DNA of 60,298 bases, taken from positions 1 to 60,298 of the IMG/VR virus record IMGVR_UViG_3300042549_007471; one strand, 5' to 3'. The translations under genes were made by a program, and so were the position numbers. The notes under the pieces were generated by a model that searched no databases, had not been told where the DNA came from, and saw nothing but the letters and a program-made list of their open reading frames with translations. This stretch comes from a virus. Below are positions 8,305 through 20,800 of this stretch, piece after piece; position 1 is the stretch's first letter, and each line of letters opens with the position of its first letter.

Positions 8305-8310
8305 ATCACA

Positions 8311-8466
8311 ATGACTGAAACATTTGTAAGGTTGAATGAAGATCAAATCAATCTTCTTCTTTATTGTATAGAGCAGCAAGAGTATGAGTTTAATGATGAT
8401 GAACAAGTTCTATGCGAAGCAATCATTGATACTTTCACCTCTGCTTTAGTAGAGATAAACACTTAA
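8311..8466 (+). CDS. small acidic hypothetical protein (51 aa)
   Basis: ATG 8311 to TAA 8464-8466, six bases after the previous stop. It is helical and acidic (RLNEDQINLLLYCIEQQEYE, CEAIIDTFTSALVEI). It is the last gene of the early block, before the large non-coding region. No family recognised. Confidence 0.6.
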   Translation: MTETFVRLNEDQINLLLYCIEQQEYEFNDDEQVLCEAIIDTFTSALVEINT

Positions 8467-8551
8467 TCATAAGATGAAATAATCATTTATAACGATAAAA
8501 TGTTTTAATTGATAATTAAATTAAATGTATTAAAAAACATATGTTAGTGTT

Positions 8552-8580
8552 TTGTGTTGATATAATGATAGTGTTATAAT
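8552..8580 (+). promoter_or_regulatory. possible rightward sigma70-type promoter
   Basis: TTGTGT at 8552-8557, a 17-base spacer and TATAAT at 8575-8580. The -35 is a partial match and the region is AT-rich, so chance is possible. There is no gene downstream until 8984. Confidence 0.35.
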
Positions 8581-8651
8581 AGTCTTTATATCCTCTTTAT
8601 ATCATCTTTAGACACTTATAAATGCCTCCAGGTCTTGTTGTCTAGGCCCGC

Positions 8652-8680
8652 ATTATACCATAAGACCCAAAAAAAGTCAA
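8652..8680 (-). promoter_or_regulatory. leftward consensus sigma70-type promoter
   Basis: On the minus strand TTGACT (8680-8675) is followed by a 17-base spacer and TATAAT (8657-8652), close to the ideal host promoter. No minus-strand gene follows; the transcript would run through AT-rich DNA and then antisense to 8466-8311. It may make a small or antisense RNA. Confidence 0.55.
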
Positions 8681-8729
8681 GGGCATTACAGACACTCCTA
8701 GGGGTGGCACAAGACATATAGACAATGAA

Positions 8730-8766
8730 ACTCCTGAGACTCACACATCTTATGAGTCTCAGGAGT
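8730..8766. repeat. 14-bp perfect inverted repeat
   Basis: ACTCCTGAGACTCA (8730-8743) and TGAGTCTCAGGAGT (8753-8766) are exact complements with a 9-base loop, followed by ATTTTATTAG. It could act as a bidirectional terminator or an operator. The half-site TGAGTCTCAGG recurs at about 8830-8840. Confidence 0.7.
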
Positions 8767-8931
8767 ATTTTATTAGTTACTCGTAAGACTCATAGGACGC
8801 AGACACTTTGAGAAGTGGCACAGTGACTCGTGAGTCTCAGGCATTGTGCGGTAGACTTATAGGGTCGGGAGGGAGGGAATATTATAAAACTCCCAGAATC
8901 CCAGTGTTTATAATACTTTTCAGGGACATTA

Positions 8932-8983
8932 TAGTTTTGTCCCGAAACCCCCCATAAATAACCATAGTTTCGGGACAAAACTA
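8932..8983. repeat. 17-bp perfect inverted repeat abutting the ATG at 8984
   Basis: TAGTTTTGTCCCGAAAC (8932-8948) and GTTTCGGGACAAAACTA (8967-8983) are exact complements. The 18-base loop contains CATAAATA (8953-8960), a one-base variant of the T4 late promoter box. The right arm ends at the base before the start codon, so the hairpin would occlude ribosome binding; as DNA it is a large operator-like dyad. Confidence 0.85.
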
Positions 8984-9145
8984 ATGAGACCCCAAAAGTA
9001 TAAGAATTTAGGACCAACTGAAAGAATGAGAGTGCCTTTATGCAAAAAGATTGAGACATTATGTCAAGTATTAGACGAAAAAGTAGAACAAGGTTATGAT
9101 GCCGTTGAGTTATTAGATTCGTTTATTGAGAGTATTAGTAATTAG
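8984..9145 (+). CDS. small protein, possible ribbon-helix-helix regulator (53 aa)
   Basis: ATG 8984 to TAG 9143-9145. The sequence GPTERMRVPLCKKIETLCQV, then VEQGYDAVELLDSFIESI, has the strand-helix-helix layout of CopG-like ribbon-helix-helix proteins, where a TERMRVP-like strand contacts DNA. The resemblance is weak and the protein is short. It lies in the middle of a repeat-rich region, with a 17-bp dyad at its start codon, so self-regulation or binding to the nearby repeats is plausible but inferred. No Shine-Dalgarno sequence is visible. Confidence 0.5.
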   Translation: MRPQKYKNLGPTERMRVPLCKKIETLCQVLDEKVEQGYDAVELLDSFIESISN

Positions 9146-9157
9146 TCAGAACGTGAT

Positions 9158-9198
9158 TGTGGAAAACCTGTGGAAGGTTCGTTATACCCTGTGGAAAA
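9158..9198. promoter_or_regulatory. cluster of cyanobacterial-type DnaA boxes
   Basis: TGTGGAAAA at 9158-9166 and 9190-9198 is the exact complement of TTTTCCACA, the DnaA-box consensus reported for Synechococcus. TGTGGAAGG at 9169-9177 is a near match. All point the same way, with start-to-start spacings of 11 and 21 bases, close to one and two helical turns. An AT-rich stretch follows within 75 bases. Confidence 0.55.
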
Positions 9199-9620
9199 CT
9201 ATTCGTGTTAGAATCTCATTCGTCCTGAGAGTTCGTTATACATAAGAGTTCGTTATAATCATTCGTTGTGCTTATAGTATTATAATATATTCGTCTTATA
9301 GTATAATAATATAATAGCAACGTTATGTTTGAGACCCCCCATAAGGTTTGCTATTTCAATCAGACAGTGCTATACTATTCGTTGTACACAGTTTCTGACA
9401 TAAACTGATGTCGTCCTCTGAGTATCATAAACTCTCGGAGGAGTTCGTTATACAACCCCCCATAAGGTTTGTTATTCTTTTCGTCCTGTGCTATACAATT
9501 CGTTATACACAGTTCGTGATACAAACTGATGCCCTCCGTTCGTTTATACTAACCCCCCATAAGGTTTCGTATTAGAATTAAACAGTAATGAATATAAACT
9601 ATTCGTGATTGTTCGTTTAT
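9177..9620 (+). repeat. iteron-like TTCGT-cored direct repeats
   Basis: RTTCGTTATA or close variants occur at 9177, 9201, 9231, 9248, 9261, 9289, 9377, 9443, 9498, 9512, 9538, 9601 and 9611, with a shorter ATTCGT at 9218. All are on the + strand. Four copies are exactly GTTCGTTATA (9177, 9231, 9248, 9443). This density is not seen elsewhere in the window. Confidence 0.75.
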
Positions 9621-9640
9621 TATAATTAAACAGCACTGTT
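9335..9640 (+). repeat. three degenerate tandem units beginning CCCCCCATAAGGTTT
   Basis: Units start at 9335, 9456 and 9553. Units 1 and 2 also share GTGCTATAC, ATTCGTTRTACACAGTT and ACAAACTGATG/ATAAACTGATG in the same order, so they are clearly duplicated. Unit 3 is more diverged after the first 15 bases. Confidence 0.7.
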
Positions 9641-9758
9641 TGACAGTTATATTTTGTGTTGTTGTATTCTTATACCTAACCGATGCCCCCTATATAAAAT
9701 CAATGGGTCCTTCAAGGCTACACCGAACCGAAAACGAGAGAGTAATTGTCTTTCAAAT

Positions 9759-9791
9759 AAAAAAATTTTTCCAAAAAATTTTTCCAAAAAA
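9759..9791. other. phased A/T tracts
   Basis: Runs of A(6-7) and T(5) separated by CC repeat with a 13-base period. Such tracts can bend DNA or exclude proteins. They lie just upstream of the gene at 9846. Confidence 0.45.
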
Positions 9792-9845
9792 GTTGAGGGC
9801 ACAAGAACAAAAAATGATATATAAGTTTAGAATTTAATCAGAAAA

Positions 9846-10004
9846 ATGACAATGAGACTGGAGATTGATGATTACGAAAAAGATCTAATAATTGATACAA
9901 TTCAACATAGATTAGACACCGATAAAATTTTAGTAATCAATGATAGACTGAGAGAAGAACTTGAAGATCTTCTAAGGAAAGTGGAAGAAGATGAATACGT
10001 ATAA
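9846..10004 (+). CDS. small hypothetical protein (52 aa)
   Basis: ATG 9846 to TAA 10002-10004. The helical, charged sequence (MTMRLEIDDYEKDLIIDTIQ, then REELEDLLRKVEEDEYV) resembles small phage proteins of the LDxxxxxLIxxALxxR type. It overlaps the next gene by 14 bases. Function unknown. Confidence 0.65.
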   Translation: MTMRLEIDDYEKDLIIDTIQHRLDTDKILVINDRLREELEDLLRKVEEDEYV

Positions 10005-10161
10005 TATTTCAGTAAATGGAAATGAAATATTAAGTCAAGTGCCGCAGAATGATTTACAGGAAAATCTGAAACTTATCAGAGGACTTGTATGGACATCTGG
10101 GGGAAATGATGGGGATATTACAGTATCTCTAAATAAGAATGAAAACCATTGCAATGAATGA
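9991..10161 (+). CDS. small hypothetical protein (56 aa)
   Basis: ATG 9991 lies inside the end of the previous gene. The sequence MNTYNISVNGNEILSQVPQN, then LKLIRGLVWTSGGNDGDITV, ends with a polar, cysteine-containing tail. The VWTSGGNDGDITV segment recalls small conserved phage proteins, but I cannot name a family. Confidence 0.6.
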   Translation: MNTYNISVNGNEILSQVPQNDLQENLKLIRGLVWTSGGNDGDITVSLNKNENHCNE

Positions 10162-10212
10162 TTTGTGGTGGTAGAATACTAAAGAACAGATTATTTTTCG
10201 CAATTATTTTTT

Positions 10213-10962
10213 ATGGCTAAAGGATTTACGGTAAAAGCAAAACTTCCGACAGGACCTGTGGAAGGAGAGTTTAATTTAGAAGCAGCAAAAGAAATGATCC
10301 GAGGCAAATCAATTGTCTTTTGTTTGCCTGGACGAGGAGTATCTTATCTGTATCTGAAGAATTTTGTTCAGTTGTGTTTTGATCTTGTACAGAATGGTGC
10401 AAGTATTCAAATTTCACAAGACTACAGTTCAATGGTGAACTTTGCACGATGCAAATGTCTTGGAGCAAATGTTCTCAGAGGACCCAAGCAGATTCCTTGG
10501 GATGGAAAACTACAGTATGATTATCAACTCTGGATTGACAGTGATATTGTCTTTGATACTGAGAAGTTCTATCGTCTTGTAGCAATGGACAAAGAGATTG
10601 CTGCTGGATGGTACTGCACTGAAGATGGTCACACCACATCGGTTGCCCATTGGTTACAGGAAGATGATTTCAGAAGCAATGGTGGTGTAATGAACCACGA
10701 GACACTGGAGACCATTCAGAAACGTCGTAAACCATTTACAGTGGATTACACAGGTTTCGGATGGGTTTTGATTAAGAAAGGTGTATTTGAGAATCTTGAG
10801 TATCCTTGGTTTGCTCCGAAGATGCAGGTCTTTGAATCTGGTGAAGTTCAAGATATGTGTGGAGAGGATGTTTCATTCTGTCTTGATGCAAAAGAGGCAG
10901 GATATGAGATTTGGTGTGACCCTTTGATTCGAGTTGGTCACGAAAAGACACGAATCATCTGA
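10213..10962 (+). CDS. glycosyltransferase-like (GT-A) protein (249 aa)
   Basis: The sequence has a GT-A style layout: an N-terminal VFCLPGRGVSYLYLKNFVQL segment, a DSD motif at about residues 109-111 within QLWIDSDIVF that would bind the metal and sugar nucleotide, and a C-terminal GEDVSFCLDAKEAGYEIWCD with CDPLIRVGHEKT typical of these folds. Similar proteins are common in cyanophages, where they are annotated as glycosyltransferases. Substrate unknown; modification of phage DNA or of a surface glycan are both possible. No clear Shine-Dalgarno precedes ATG 10213. Confidence 0.65.
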   Translation: MAKGFTVKAKLPTGPVEGEFNLEAAKEMIRGKSIVFCLPGRGVSYLYLKNFVQLCFDLVQNGASIQISQDYSSMVNFARCKCLGANVLRGPKQIPWDGKLQYDYQLWIDSDIVFDTEKFYRLVAMDKEIAAGWYCTEDGHTTSVAHWLQEDDFRSNGGVMNHETLETIQKRRKPFTVDYTGFGWVLIKKGVFENLEYPWFAPKMQVFESGEVQDMCGEDVSFCLDAKEAGYEIWCDPLIRVGHEKTRII

Positions 10963-11251: not shown

Positions 11252-11890
11252 ATGGCTTATTTAAACCATAGTCTTCCAGATTGGTCCTGTTATATTCGTA
11301 ATGAATTTCTTTTTAATCACAAGAAAGGTCACGGTGAAGTAACTAAATGTGATGTTCATTGTGTTGCTAGTATTGAAAAAAGAGTTCCTTTATTTGAGGC
11401 ATTCCTTGAGAATGGCGTGAATTGGACTCGTAGACCTCTTCACGCATTTTGTTGGAAACCAGATGCAGAAATAGAACCTTTAGAGGATCTTATGTACTGG
11501 GACTGCTTTTCACCGTATGTTGATGTTCAAAAACGTGCCCGTCTTGCTGGATTGCAAGCAGAATTGATTCGTCCTGATGGAAAAAAAGTGATTGGGAGCT
11601 ATATGTTTACCCTTGATTGGTCATGGGAAAATAAAGGAGTCACTGATCTTAATTTTTCAGAGACTCCTGAACATAAATGTGCTCATTTATTCAAGGTGGA
11701 AACTGGAAATTACTATGCATATCCAAACAATCGCATTATTTGGTATGATAATGCCTGGACTTTCAATAGAATTGACAAAAATCCAGGATATGAAATTGAT
11801 TTGACAGTATATTCGGTTGAAAATAAAAGAAAAATCGAAACATCTGATCATTACATGTACGAAATTACAAATTTAAATCAAAATAAATAA
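11252..11890 (+). CDS. conserved cyanophage hypothetical protein (212 aa)
   Basis: ATG 11252 lies two bases after the previous stop. The sequence is aromatic and His/Cys-containing (FLFNHKKGHGEVTKCDVHCV) with a central acidic strip. I associate it with uncharacterised proteins near speD and gp25 in cyanophages but cannot assign a fold. A middle segment (GSYMFTLDWSWENKGVTDLN, then PEHKCAHLFKVETGNYYAYP) suggests a beta-rich domain. No catalytic motif is evident. Confidence 0.7.
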   Translation: MAYLNHSLPDWSCYIRNEFLFNHKKGHGEVTKCDVHCVASIEKRVPLFEAFLENGVNWTRRPLHAFCWKPDAEIEPLEDLMYWDCFSPYVDVQKRARLAGLQAELIRPDGKKVIGSYMFTLDWSWENKGVTDLNFSETPEHKCAHLFKVETGNYYAYPNNRIIWYDNAWTFNRIDKNPGYEIDLTVYSVENKRKIETSDHYMYEITNLNQNK

Positions 11891-11911
11891 ATTTTTACTA
11901 AAGATATTGAG

Positions 11912-12253
11912 TTGAAACAGTTTTCGATGGGCAATCACCTTCTTTTGGAGGTTTATGATATAGAACACAATCTTCTGAATGATGGTATTTCTCTTCAGGG
12001 GGTGATGGAACGTGGAATTGAACGTGCTGGAATGACTATTTTAAATATTTTTCAGCACTGTTTCTATCCTCAAGGAGTTACGATTGTAATTGCTCTTTCG
12101 GAAAGTCATGTTTCGTGTCATACATGGCCGGAAAGAGGTTGTATTGCCATAGATGTATATACTTGTGGTGAAGGAAATCCAAAATTAGTTGCACTAGAAT
12201 TGTTGAAGTATTTTAATTCGGATAATTATAAACTTCGTCAGTTGGATCGTTAA
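11912..12253 (+). CDS. speD: S-adenosylmethionine decarboxylase proenzyme (113 aa)
   Basis: SpeD decarboxylates S-adenosylmethionine to supply aminopropyl groups for spermidine synthesis. The family signature ALSESHVSCHTWPERG is complete. By family knowledge the chain cleaves itself between Glu64 and Ser65, and Ser65 becomes the pyruvoyl group. The catalytic His (H70) and Cys (C85, in VYTCGEG) are present. The length fits the short bacterial type. The start is TTG 11912, giving MKQFSMGNHLL as in other SpeD proteins; ATG 11927 would remove five residues. It is a typical cyanophage auxiliary metabolic gene, perhaps supporting polyamine supply for DNA packaging. Confidence 0.92.
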   Translation: MKQFSMGNHLLLEVYDIEHNLLNDGISLQGVMERGIERAGMTILNIFQHCFYPQGVTIVIALSESHVSCHTWPERGCIAIDVYTCGEGNPKLVALELLKYFNSDNYKLRQLDR

Positions 12254-12594: not shown

Positions 12595-12996
12595 ATGCCA
12601 ATTAGCATTTCAAGATCTTTTAAAGACATTAGTTTGTCTTTTTCACGTCATCCTGTTACAAATGATATTTTAATTTTAAAAAATGAGGATGCAATTAAAA
12701 GATCTGTTCTCAATTTAGTTCAAACTCAAATTAGTGAGAGGTTCTTCAATAACTTATTGGGAACCTCTGTGAATTCTTCTTTGTTTGAACTTGCAACACA
12801 AGAAATAGAGATTATTTTAAAAAGAGAAATTGAAACTGTATTAAATAATTTTGAACCAAGAATTAGATTAAATAATATAGAGGTAGAAGTAATTGATGAT
12901 TATAATGAATTGACCGTTAAAATTGTATATGACATTGTTGGACTACCATTACCACTACAGAATATAGAGTTTATTTTACAACCAACTAGAATATAA
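12595..12996 (+). CDS. 25: baseplate wedge protein gp25 (133 aa)
   Basis: gp25 is the small lysozyme-fold-like component that starts the sheath at the baseplate in contractile tails. The family core is clear: NNFEPRIRLNNIEVEVIDDY near residues 85-104, containing the EPR motif, and an N-terminal DISLSFSRHPVTNDI segment. The length matches T4 gp25 (132). Its stop overlaps the gp6 start (TAATG), as in other T4-like phages. Confidence 0.92.
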   Translation: MPISISRSFKDISLSFSRHPVTNDILILKNEDAIKRSVLNLVQTQISERFFNNLLGTSVNSSLFELATQEIEIILKREIETVLNNFEPRIRLNNIEVEVIDDYNELTVKIVYDIVGLPLPLQNIEFILQPTRI

Positions 12997-14888
12997 TGTC
13001 CTTCAATAACTTTACAAACTTAGATTTTAATGATTTAAGAACTCAAATTAAGAGTTATTTGAGAGCAAATGCAAATTTTACAGATTTTGATTTTGAAGGA
13101 TCTAATTTTTCTGTTTTAATTGATATTTTAGCATATAATTCTTACATTACTGCATTTAACACCAATATGGTGGTGAATGAATCCTTTATTGATAGTGCAA
13201 CTCTTCGGGAGAATGTTGTTTCTCTTGCACGTAATATCGGATATGTACCAAGATCAAAAAGTGCATCAAAGGGAAAAATAAGTTTTTCCGTAAGCACACC
13301 TAGAGATTCTAGTGGTAATTTAATTTCAAAAACAGTTACTTTAAAGGCAGGAGTAGTTGCCTTAGGTGCTGTGGAGGGGGGAAATTATATTTTTTCAATT
13401 CCAGAAGATAAAACAGTTGTTGTTGGAAATGATGGATTTGCAAATTTCACAGATGTTGAAATTTATGAAGGAACATTTTTAACTAAATCATTTACAATTG
13501 ACGATTCGCAACCAAATCAAAGATTTTTAATTCCAAATGCAAGTGTGGATACATCCACACTTCGTGTGAAAGTTACAAATGTTATAAATGAAAAATATGA
13601 GTTATATAATAATATTTTTAAAGTAGACAAAACTTCAAAATTATTTTTAATACAAGAAGTTAGTGATGAGAAATATGAAATTGTATTTGGTGATAATATT
13701 TTAGGAAAAAGACCAATTAGTGGAAGTACCGTTCTTGTTTCCTATATTGTAACAAATGGAAAGGAAGGTGATGGTTGCTTTAACTTTACATTTTCAGGAA
13801 TTTTAGTTGATAATAATCAAACAGCAATCACAAGTGGAATTTCTTTAATTACCACAACTCAAGTATCAGAAAATGGTGACGATATTGAGTCTATTGATTC
13901 AATTAAATATCTTGGACCAAGAGTCTATGCCTCCCAGTATCGTGCAGTTACTGCAAATGACTATAAAGGATTAATCCCATCTATTTTTCCAAATGTAGAT
14001 ACTGTTACTGCTTATGGTGGAGAAGAACTAGACCCACCAGAATATGGAAAAGTTTACATTTCAATAAAACCAAGAAATGGTAAATTTTTATCTCAAATCT
14101 CAAAAAATGAGATTAAAAAGCAACTAAAGCAATATTCAATTGCAGGAATACAACCAGAGATTATTGATTTGAAATATTTGTATGTTGAATTGGAATCCTC
14201 TGTATATTATGACAAAAGTTCAACTTCAAGTGTTACTGATTTACAATCTAGAGTTATTAATTCATTAAAGAGTTATGCAAAATCAACAGAATTGAACAGT
14301 TTTGGTGGAAGATTTAAGTATAGTAAAGTTTCAACGTTAATTGATAGCACAAGCACTGCAGTCACTTCAAATATCACAAAAGTAAAAATAAGAAGAGATT
14401 TACAACCAGCACTCAATACTCTTGCAAATTATGAACTTTGTTTTGGAAATCAATTTCATATTCAAAAGTTAATTGATGGGAAAGGATATAACATAAAATC
14501 TACAGGATTTACTGTCAAAAATATAGCAGATAAATTATATTTAAGTGATACACCAAGGACAGATGAAGTTGGAACTATCTTTTTCTTTAGACTTGTGAAT
14601 GGAGTTCCATTCATTGTAGTAAATAATGCAGGAGAAGTTAATTACAAAAAAGGAGAAATATTATTAAATCCAGTGATTATAACTTCTTCGGATAATTCTT
14701 CGGGAATACAAATTCAAGCAATTCCGGAATCAAATGATATCATTTCTTTGAAAGATATATACTTAGAGATGGATACTACTACACTTAAAGTAACTATGCT
14801 AGAGGATGTGATAACTTCTGGAGAAAATACCTCTGCAACAGAATATCCAGTCACATCTAGTTACAACAACGGAAATTATATAAGATAA
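12996..14888 (+). CDS. 6: baseplate wedge protein gp6 (630 aa)
   Basis: gp6 dimers form the continuous inner ring of the baseplate that ties the wedges together. Evidence is the length (T4 gp6 is 660 residues), the position directly after gp25, and the conserved N-terminal pattern FEGSNFSVLIDILAYNSYIT followed by NESFIDSATLRENVVSLARN. The gpJ-like central part (GPRVYASQYRAVTANDYKGL) also fits. Translation is coupled to gp25. Confidence 0.9.
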   Translation: MSFNNFTNLDFNDLRTQIKSYLRANANFTDFDFEGSNFSVLIDILAYNSYITAFNTNMVVNESFIDSATLRENVVSLARNIGYVPRSKSASKGKISFSVSTPRDSSGNLISKTVTLKAGVVALGAVEGGNYIFSIPEDKTVVVGNDGFANFTDVEIYEGTFLTKSFTIDDSQPNQRFLIPNASVDTSTLRVKVTNVINEKYELYNNIFKVDKTSKLFLIQEVSDEKYEIVFGDNILGKRPISGSTVLVSYIVTNGKEGDGCFNFTFSGILVDNNQTAITSGISLITTTQVSENGDDIESIDSIKYLGPRVYASQYRAVTANDYKGLIPSIFPNVDTVTAYGGEELDPPEYGKVYISIKPRNGKFLSQISKNEIKKQLKQYSIAGIQPEIIDLKYLYVELESSVYYDKSSTSSVTDLQSRVINSLKSYAKSTELNSFGGRFKYSKVSTLIDSTSTAVTSNITKVKIRRDLQPALNTLANYELCFGNQFHIQKLIDGKGYNIKSTGFTVKNIADKLYLSDTPRTDEVGTIFFFRLVNGVPFIVVNNAGEVNYKKGEILLNPVIITSSDNSSGIQIQAIPESNDIISLKDIYLEMDTTTLKVTMLEDVITSGENTSATEYPVTSSYNNGNYIR

Positions 14889-17800: not shown

Positions 17801-20800
17801 CTTCAATATCTGGATTATCAACTCAAACAAATTATTATGTTACTGTAATTGATAGCAATAGATTTAAATTATCAGTTTTTGGATCTTCTGAAAATCAAAG
17901 AATTAATTATGATAATAAAAAATATGTTAGGTTTTCTTCTGTAGGGGTAGGAACTCACATTTTCTCATATCCACCAATTCAAATTGAAATTGAACACGTT
18001 TCTGGAATTGCAACTTCACCATCGGCAGAACCGATAGTTCTTGGATCAATTGAAAATGTTTTTATCACAAATGATGGAAAAAATTATGGTTCTCCTGATA
18101 CATTAAATTATCACAGAAAACCTAGAGTTGGAATTTTCAGTATTCTTTCTGAATGTATTCTAAAACCAGTTTTGTTGAATGGTTCTATTGTTGATGTTCA
18201 AATATTAAACTCTGGTAGAGGATACGGGAAAGACATTGATATAAAGATATTTGGCAAAGGAAAATATGCAGAATTATATCCAATTGTAACAAATGGAAAA
18301 ATAACAAGTATTAATATTTTGAATTCTGGTATAGGTTATGATGAAAAGACTACGTTACTTATTCAAAGAAGAGGTTTAGGTGCAAGATTTAGTGCCAATA
18401 TTTTTGAATGGAAAATTAATCAAGTAGAAAAAAACAAAAAAATTATTTCACCCAATGATGGGGGTTTAATTGTACCTAGTAAAAACAACGAAACAACACT
18501 GGAATTTATTCATTTTTATCCACCAAAAAATCTAAGATTTAAAGTTAATAATTTTATTGATAAAGATAATAATGAAATCTTACCAGACAATAATCAAAAT
18601 CCATATAAAATTTTAGGGTGGGCTTACGATGGAAATCCAATTTTTGGACCATATGGAAAAGTTAATGGTGAGTCAAAATTATTACAATCAAGCTATAAAC
18701 TAAAAAATTCTGGTGAAATCGGAATTTCAATTTCAAATCAACTGAGACCCAATTTTGGATCAGGATTTTTTGTACAAGATTATCTTTATGATAGGGGAAC
18801 TGGAGATTTAGATGAATATAATGGAATGTTTATTAATGACAAAAATTTACCAAATATTAACTATGGTTACTTTTCAACGATTTCTAATGATGAAAAAGAA
18901 CCACAGTATCCATATACAGTACCTTTGAATTTTAAAGATTTACCAATAGAAGAAAATTTTAATCCGTTATTTAATCAAGATTTTAATTTTGAATCCTTAG
19001 ATATTGTTAGAAATATTGGACCTTATTATTTGAATTCAAGTAATTCTTCTTATGATTTAATTGATAAAATTGATTCAAAATATAAACAAGAATTTATTGT
19101 TAAAGATATAAGTTCTTCTGGTATAACTTCAATTTCTATTTTTGAACCAGGTGATAATTATAAAGTAGGAGAATTAATTAAATTTGACAGTAAATCTTCT
19201 GGTGGAAATTCAGTTTCTGCTGAGATTTCTAGGATAAAAGGAAAAAACGTATCAAATGTACAGGTTGGAATTTTAACATTTACTGATGTAAATTTCATCA
19301 CAAAGGGTGTTTCAATAAAAGGAATTACAAATCAACCACATAATCTAATTAGTGATGATGAAATCATTATATCCAATTTGTCATCAAGTGAATTTAATCA
19401 TTTGGAAGGAACTAAAAAAATATATGTTTTCCAAAACAGTGCAGGATTAGTAGAAAACCTAGAGAGTCAATCAGTTACTGGAGTGACAACATACGTTAAA
19501 GTTACCGATGTATCTGGATTTGAAGTTGATAATTTTATAGGAATAGGAACAGAAGTTTTAAAAATAATCAACATTTCTTCAACGGAATCAAAATTATACG
19601 TAAATAGATTTGATAATTATTCTGGAATACACAGTGTAGGATTTGCAACTGTAACTTTGTTGCCAAATACATTTACATTTTCAACTCAAAAATATGAAGA
19701 TGATATAGTTGAAAATAAAACTGTTTATTTCAATCCAAGCAATACGATTGGAATTGGAACAACTGGTTCAATTTATTATAACATAGTCGGATTTCAAACT
19801 GCTTTCGGAACTTTAAATGCAACAGGTCTCAGCACAGTTGGTGTAAATACTACTTTATTGGAAATTGGTGATTATGTATTTGGGACTAATATTCAAAATA
19901 ACACAACTATAACATCAATTGGGATTGGTTCAATTACAATAACACCAGACCACACTCTTGGTGGTGGGATATCAACAAATTTATTGACATTTTCAAGGAA
20001 AATATACGATAAAACTGTTCCAAGTCGTTCAATATACATACCAAGTCATAAATTTTATACTGGACAATCTATTACTTATAATGTTGGGTTGGTTGGAAAT
20101 GGCATTGTGGTTTCTGAAACTGGGACAGGAACAACATTTAGATTAGCAAACAACCAAACAGTATATACAGTTAATTTAGGAAAAGATTATGTTGGTCTAT
20201 CTACTTTAGGATTTACTACTAGTACTGGAATTGGAACGACACAAAATTCTTTATATTTTAGAAGTCCTATTGAAAATATTGGTTTGGCTCATTCTTTGAC
20301 AACTCAATATGAAAAAATTAAGGGGAAAGTAAATAATTATTCAGTAGTCGTTTCAACTTCTCAAACACACGGTTTGCAAACAGGTGACAATATTAAATTT
20401 AATTTTGAACAAAGTAACACAAATACTATAAAATTAAGATACGACAAAGTAATTAGAAAAATAACTACAGAACTTATTGATTTTGACCCCTTATCGGGAA
20501 TAAACACACTCACAAATGAAATTAATATTCCTGGAAATAATTTAAAAACAGGAGATAAGATTGTTTATTATACTAATGACCAAACTTCTGTTGGTGGATT
20601 ATCTACAAATGCTGTGTATTATGTTTTAAAACAAAATCCAGATAAAATTAAGTTATCAAGTTATCAATATGATGCTAATGTTGGAATTGCAATTACTTTG
20701 ACTTCTGTTGGTTCAGGATTAACTCACAATTTTGCTCTCGTCAATCCACCAATCAATATTTTAAATGGAAATATAATATCCTTTGATTTAACTGATGGTA

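Follow-up and report, generated by a model that had tools for sequence, protein, structure and literature searches.

The question raised by this locus is whether a small group of DnaA boxes in a virus genome belongs to a replication origin that is loaded by the initiator protein of the host. The best matches of the window (the whole stretch of DNA analysed, 60,298 bp) were T4-type cyanophages of the family Kyanoviridae. For these phages, which are abundant in the sea and in lakes, no mode of replication start seems to have been described; in T4, replication begins from phage promoters and by recombination. The boxes lie within a mostly noncoding stretch of 1.9 kb (8305-10212), between small ORFs and a gene block that opens with phrog_1574 (10213-10962), followed by the baseplate wedge genes gp25 (12595-12996) and gp6 (12996-14888), these three on the plus strand, and by an ORF of very large size where gp7 would be expected. 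The phrog_1574 protein was the anchor for finding relatives, in which a box cluster is frequently present 1.0-1.6 kb upstream of this gene; gp25 and gp6 were the synteny markers, gp6 being shared with T4 oriE. A ferredoxin-annotated PHROG protein and an S-adenosylmethionine decarboxylase, both auxiliary metabolic genes, were present between the noncoding stretch and gp25 (11252-12253). An RNA gene was rejected, as Rfam and tRNA matches were absent in the window.

The window contains two exact copies of TGTGGAAAA, at 9158-9166 (box 1) and 9190-9198 (box 2), which read TTTTCCACA on the minus strand, the cyanobacterial DnaA-box consensus (PMC4674748). Between them lies TGTGGAAGG at 9169-9177 (CCTTCCACA on the minus strand), assigned by its sequence as a degenerate box with two mismatches from the consensus; its counterpart in loci L093 and L103 is CTTTCCACA, with one mismatch. 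These three positions had been named in an earlier note made from the sequence, and all were found as described. The spacings of 11 and 21 bases given there are correct as start-to-start distances, box 2 starting 32 bp after box 1 and 21 bp after the degenerate box. Box 1 is kept in L102, L093 and L103, and box 2 has an aligned box in L090, L099 and L011. A count across the whole window found only these two exact copies, against a mean of 2.09 in dinucleotide shuffles; the bare count is equal to chance and not surprising. The evidence is instead the 32-bp closeness of the exact boxes, together with clustering and conservation in relatives. The window alone would not have carried an origin claim, the full array and 56-bp core of the relatives being absent from it.

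Relatives were collected by a scan with the anchor protein, which gave 80 IMG/VR loci, and by a scan with the repeat word, which gave 20 more. The homologous noncoding stretch of related cyanophage contigs holds between 3 and 12 exact TTTTCCACA boxes: eight within 215 bp in L006, seven each in L008, L010 and L099, six in L090, five each in L029 and L101, and three in L011. A further scan, using a portion of the core, retrieved 33 stretches, every one with 4-12 exact boxes in 90-305 bp. The clusters of 36 loci contain 249 exact boxes; the remaining 295 kb of these loci has none, compared with 6.4-7.9 predicted by Markov models. Homologous clusters are, however, non-independent observations. Among the 80 loci retrieved by protein, and thus picked blind to boxes, 49 of the 51 exact boxes were clustered; about ten of these loci bear a cluster and the majority are without one. 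Scattered copies were few in whole records: a 171-kb contig has 3 boxes besides its cluster of 8, and G013 has 1 besides its cluster of 12. Clusters thus recur at the homologous place in related phages, and the box is dense there and almost missing from the surrounding sequence compared, the opposite of the even occurrence that the earlier note had named as fatal to its proposal. Chance clustering is ruled out by the relatives, despite the chance-level count in the window. A nucleotide search of the region against the phage collection gave no matches. Head-to-tail clusters of at least three TTTTCCACA boxes were also identified in viral contigs without clear T4-type cyanophage genes (34 of the 75 loci L139-L213), and therefore other phage groups may carry such arrays.

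Exact boxes were also counted in 21 named phages. Boxes no more than 60 bp apart were present in seven (S-PM2, Syn9, Syn1, S-SM2, P-TIM68, DSL-LC02 and DSL-LC03), and an exact cluster was absent in the other 14, including P-SSM2, P-SSM4, S-RSM4 and S-SSM7. Random placement of equal numbers of boxes, performed on the 16 tabulated genomes, gave 0.11 genomes with such a pair. In all seven isolates, the best cluster of the whole genome was the one upstream of gp6, at a distance of 2.5-8.1 kb; the corresponding distance is 3.8 kb for the boxes in the window and 1.7 kb for T4 oriE. In genome coordinates, the cluster is at 52.6 kb in Syn9, 19.2 kb in S-PM2, 58.7 kb in Syn1 and 58.2 kb in P-TIM68. The distance from cluster to gp25 and gp6 differs by kilobases among the isolates. 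Annotated ORFs of very small size overlap the clusters in Syn9, Syn1 and S-SM2. In the S-PM2 record, two tRNAs are placed over the box cluster (19177-19333; L106 2178-2334), but ARAGORN identified no tRNAs in this 19-kb stretch of S-PM2; the deposited tRNA coordinates look misplaced. A switch of strand composition was not found at the clusters, as detrended GC skew had no consistent extreme there in the eight genomes analysed. T4-type phages with several origins need not show such a switch.

The arrays share a recognisable geometry. Neighbouring boxes on the same strand are mostly 11, 21-22, 31, 43 or 54 bp apart, and 59 of 93 same-strand spacings (26 distinct layouts) lie within 1.1 bp of whole helical turns, compared with 20% of possible spacings, a count that is descriptive since the layouts share ancestry. 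A divergent pair of boxes exactly 56 bp apart was observed in 34 cases, flanking a conserved TTTG(C/T)AAGGGTTTATAAG element. Most of these loci were fetched by a pattern from one half of the core, which introduces a partial ascertainment bias into the conservation of the core, but not into the number and position of the remaining boxes. The five boxes of L020 (3524-3960) all read TTCTCCACA in place of TTTTCCACA, with the layout unchanged, and this joint change suggests a common constraint by one protein that reads them. An ORF resembling a GIY-YIG endonuclease begins right beside these TTCTCCACA boxes.

The host side was approached through relatives of a phage psbA, and up to 500 bp upstream of dnaN was scanned in 35 picocyanobacterial genomes. 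A search limited to exact boxes found none near dnaN; with one mismatch allowed, a clear conserved array was seen in the 35 genomes, with 117 boxes compared with a mean of 4 and a maximum of 11 in shuffles. The host boxes are often TTTTCC(A/C)CA and tend to have a G at the adjoining position on either side. The phage boxes have the same preference, with a flanking G in 73% and 77%; they are nearly all exact, whereas the picocyanobacterial oriC boxes are mostly one mismatch off. DnaA was encoded in all six hosts tested, and a phage-encoded DnaA was rejected on the absence of PF08299 (DnaA) from all 11 phage records searched. A picocyanobacterial host, as presumed for this phage, would thus encode DnaA and have this box at its own oriC. 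Together, the related phages and the host oriC regions lend strong support to the earlier claim that the boxes are of the cyanobacterial DnaA type, and to their placement being non-accidental. L254 (NYUL01000008.1), which is filed as a gammaproteobacterial MAG, has a psbA 97% identical to cyanophage psbA and is probably a misbinned cyanophage contig.

The DNA beside the boxes was then considered for elements of an origin. The AT-rich stretch that had been pointed out at about 9271-9320 is real: it is the weakest 50-bp duplex within 9151-9700, lies at the 99.9th percentile of weakness across the window, and is 73 bp from the last box, as would suit the unwinding element of a DnaA-dependent origin. 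It forms part of an AT-rich imperfect inverted repeat with 26-nt arms (9264-9322), a candidate DNA unwinding element by its duplex weakness, which is shortened in L093 and L103 and hence not strictly conserved. The iteron-like repeats were likewise borne out. TTCGT(T)ATA repeats occupy 9178-9616 on the plus strand with irregular spacing, TTCGT being present in 16 copies within 9150-9640, all of them on the plus strand, and TTCGTTATA is present five times in that interval and nowhere else in the window. Repeats of this kind were found in relatives with many boxes and also in the box-free L095. A C-rich unit of 97-121 bp starting with ACCCCCCATAAGGTTT is present in three plus-strand copies, at 9334, 9455 and 9552 (9334-9586), the first two of which hold a promoter-like element, TGCTATAC(T/A)A; the unit is kept in relatives with and without boxes. 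A perfect 14-bp inverted repeat at 8730-8766, terminator-like on the minus strand, lies in the same noncoding stretch.

Upstream of the boxes, the window differs from close relatives that carry the full array. A perfect 17-bp inverted repeat around CCCCCCATAAATAACC (8932-8983) stands directly upstream of a 53-codon ORF (8984-9145, plus strand; MRPQKYKNLG...), at the place where close relatives have the full box array. The ORF had no matches in the PHROG and Pfam families searched and is conserved in L095 and L011. The window and L090 are 96% identical from 9175 on and cannot be aligned over 8898-9175, where L090 has its six exact boxes and the window has the inverted repeat and ORF, followed by its three boxes. 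L095 and L088, which are otherwise similar to the window here, have the ORF and no boxes, and in L011 the ORF is combined with three exact boxes at 21-bp spacing. Because close relatives carry either the array or the inverted repeat and ORF, the array appears to be a swappable module and the form in the window a reduced one.

This exchange also allows the boxes of the window to be read as a non-functional remnant, the working array having been removed by the swap of the ORF module and the lineage initiating elsewhere or by another protein. The six boxes of L090 at the place of the ORF module, and the ORF without boxes in L095 and L088, are what this reading would predict. We nevertheless consider it distinctly unlikely, as both exact boxes persist in L102, L093 and L103, three loci that diverge from the window in other parts of the region, and L011 combines the ORF with boxes at 21-bp spacing. 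The main rival, itself unlikely, is that the array is a sink and not an origin, titrating host DnaA so that initiation on the host chromosome would stop as phage copies accumulate. Perfect-consensus phage boxes should compete well with host oriC boxes that mostly carry one mismatch, and a genome may hold up to 12 of them; however, so small a number of boxes per genome would remove little DnaA at the start of infection, and neither a fixed 56-bp geometry, nor helical phasing, nor a stable location upstream of gp6 beside an unstable duplex would be required of a sink. E. coli datA is such a titration site, a cluster of strong DnaA boxes outside oriC. The phage arrays resemble it in being strong clusters outside oriC, and differ in being phage-borne, beside an unstable duplex and repeats, and at a constant place in the phage genome.

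Two other readings concern the protein and its function. It is very unlikely that DnaA acts here as a transcription switch, regulating promoters of the noncoding stretch at the border between the small ORFs and the gp25-gp6 block. The stretch is directly upstream of that block and contains promoter-like sites, including TGCTATACT repeats, but these are barely above shuffles (17 compared with 14.7); moreover, 7-12 boxes in two orientations exceed the needs of a simple operator, and the distance to gp25 and gp6 is not kept among isolates. That the words are sites of an unknown phage protein, with a coincidental likeness to DnaA boxes, is compatible with a DnaA assignment made on sequence grounds, yet the match to host oriC covers all nine positions and both flanks and similar clusters are present in distantly related cyanophages, which makes this reading hardly credible.

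The segment is best explained as belonging, in reduced form, to a family of T4-type cyanophage arrays that would bind host DnaA, and somewhat more probably than otherwise as an early phage replication origin. A host-type cluster of boxes is clear in the relatives and present in the window in reduced form (two exact and one degenerate). The origin reading of the earlier note is thus retained as the best interpretation, with the array, its fixed geometry, the unstable duplex and the synteny with oriE in its favour, and with several points against it: the small number of boxes left in the window, their absence from the otherwise similar L095 and L088, the 14 isolates with no exact cluster, the shortened unwinding candidate of L093 and L103, the overlap with short ORFs in three isolates, and GC skew, which leaves no mark. 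After injection, host DnaA would bind the head-to-tail boxes on one helical face and help to open the AT-rich duplex at about 9264-9322. The exposed strand would next be occupied by the phage proteins gp59 (loader), gp41 (helicase) and gp61 (primase), with a later change to recombination-dependent replication. DnaA binding, melting, helicase loading and origin firing are steps that we infer from the boxes, their clustering, the host match, the weak duplex and the position. The idea that cyanophages are without the gp59 loader, making loading by DnaA necessary, was found to be wrong: the annotations of P-SSM4 and S-SM2 include gp59, and the protein was found in 22 of 26 T4-like genomes.

Compared with known systems, the array resembles a chromosomal oriC in its proposed mode of action and T4 oriE in its location, but it is not equated with either. 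It has in common with cyanobacterial oriC (Synechococcus elongatus PCC 7942, Anabaena PCC 7120 and Cyanothece 51142; dnaN-linked) the 9-mer, its presence in several copies in a short noncoding stretch, and AT-rich DNA nearby. In contrast to these, it is on a lytic phage and away from dnaN, its box layout is different, and its boxes are nearly all exact. T4 oriE (Straboviridae) is likewise in a T4-type phage, upstream of baseplate gene 6 and with repeats nearby; however, its 12-nt iterons are evenly spaced, whereas the TTCGTTATA-type repeats of the window are irregular, and it has the small proteins RepEA and RepEB. The 53-codon ORF gave no blastp match to RepEA or RepEB, although proteins this short can diverge beyond detection. 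A DnaA-box cluster was looked for at T4 oriE and not found, and a review of T4 makes no mention of DnaA (PMC3016281). The phage segment can also be compared with iteron plasmids and phage P1 oriR, with which it shares host DnaA boxes and a second repeat family. In those replicons, DnaA boxes stand beside the iterons of a replicon-encoded initiator; the phage differs from them in that its repeats are irregularly spaced, no RepA-like initiator was identified, and its replisome is its own and of the T4 type.

The literature searched, the coverage of which was incomplete, contained no description of DnaA-box arrays for T4-type phages, and priority is not established. A wider proposal, which we regard as an even call, is that a lineage of T4-type phages has replaced or supplemented T4-style initiation with an oriC-like array that recruits host DnaA, located at the position of oriE and exchanged against a small-ORF module between close relatives. 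If this is true, early phage replication would be linked through a DnaA-loaded origin to the initiator of the host and thereby to its growth state. As seven cultured phages bear the array, the idea is directly testable on laboratory phage-host pairs.
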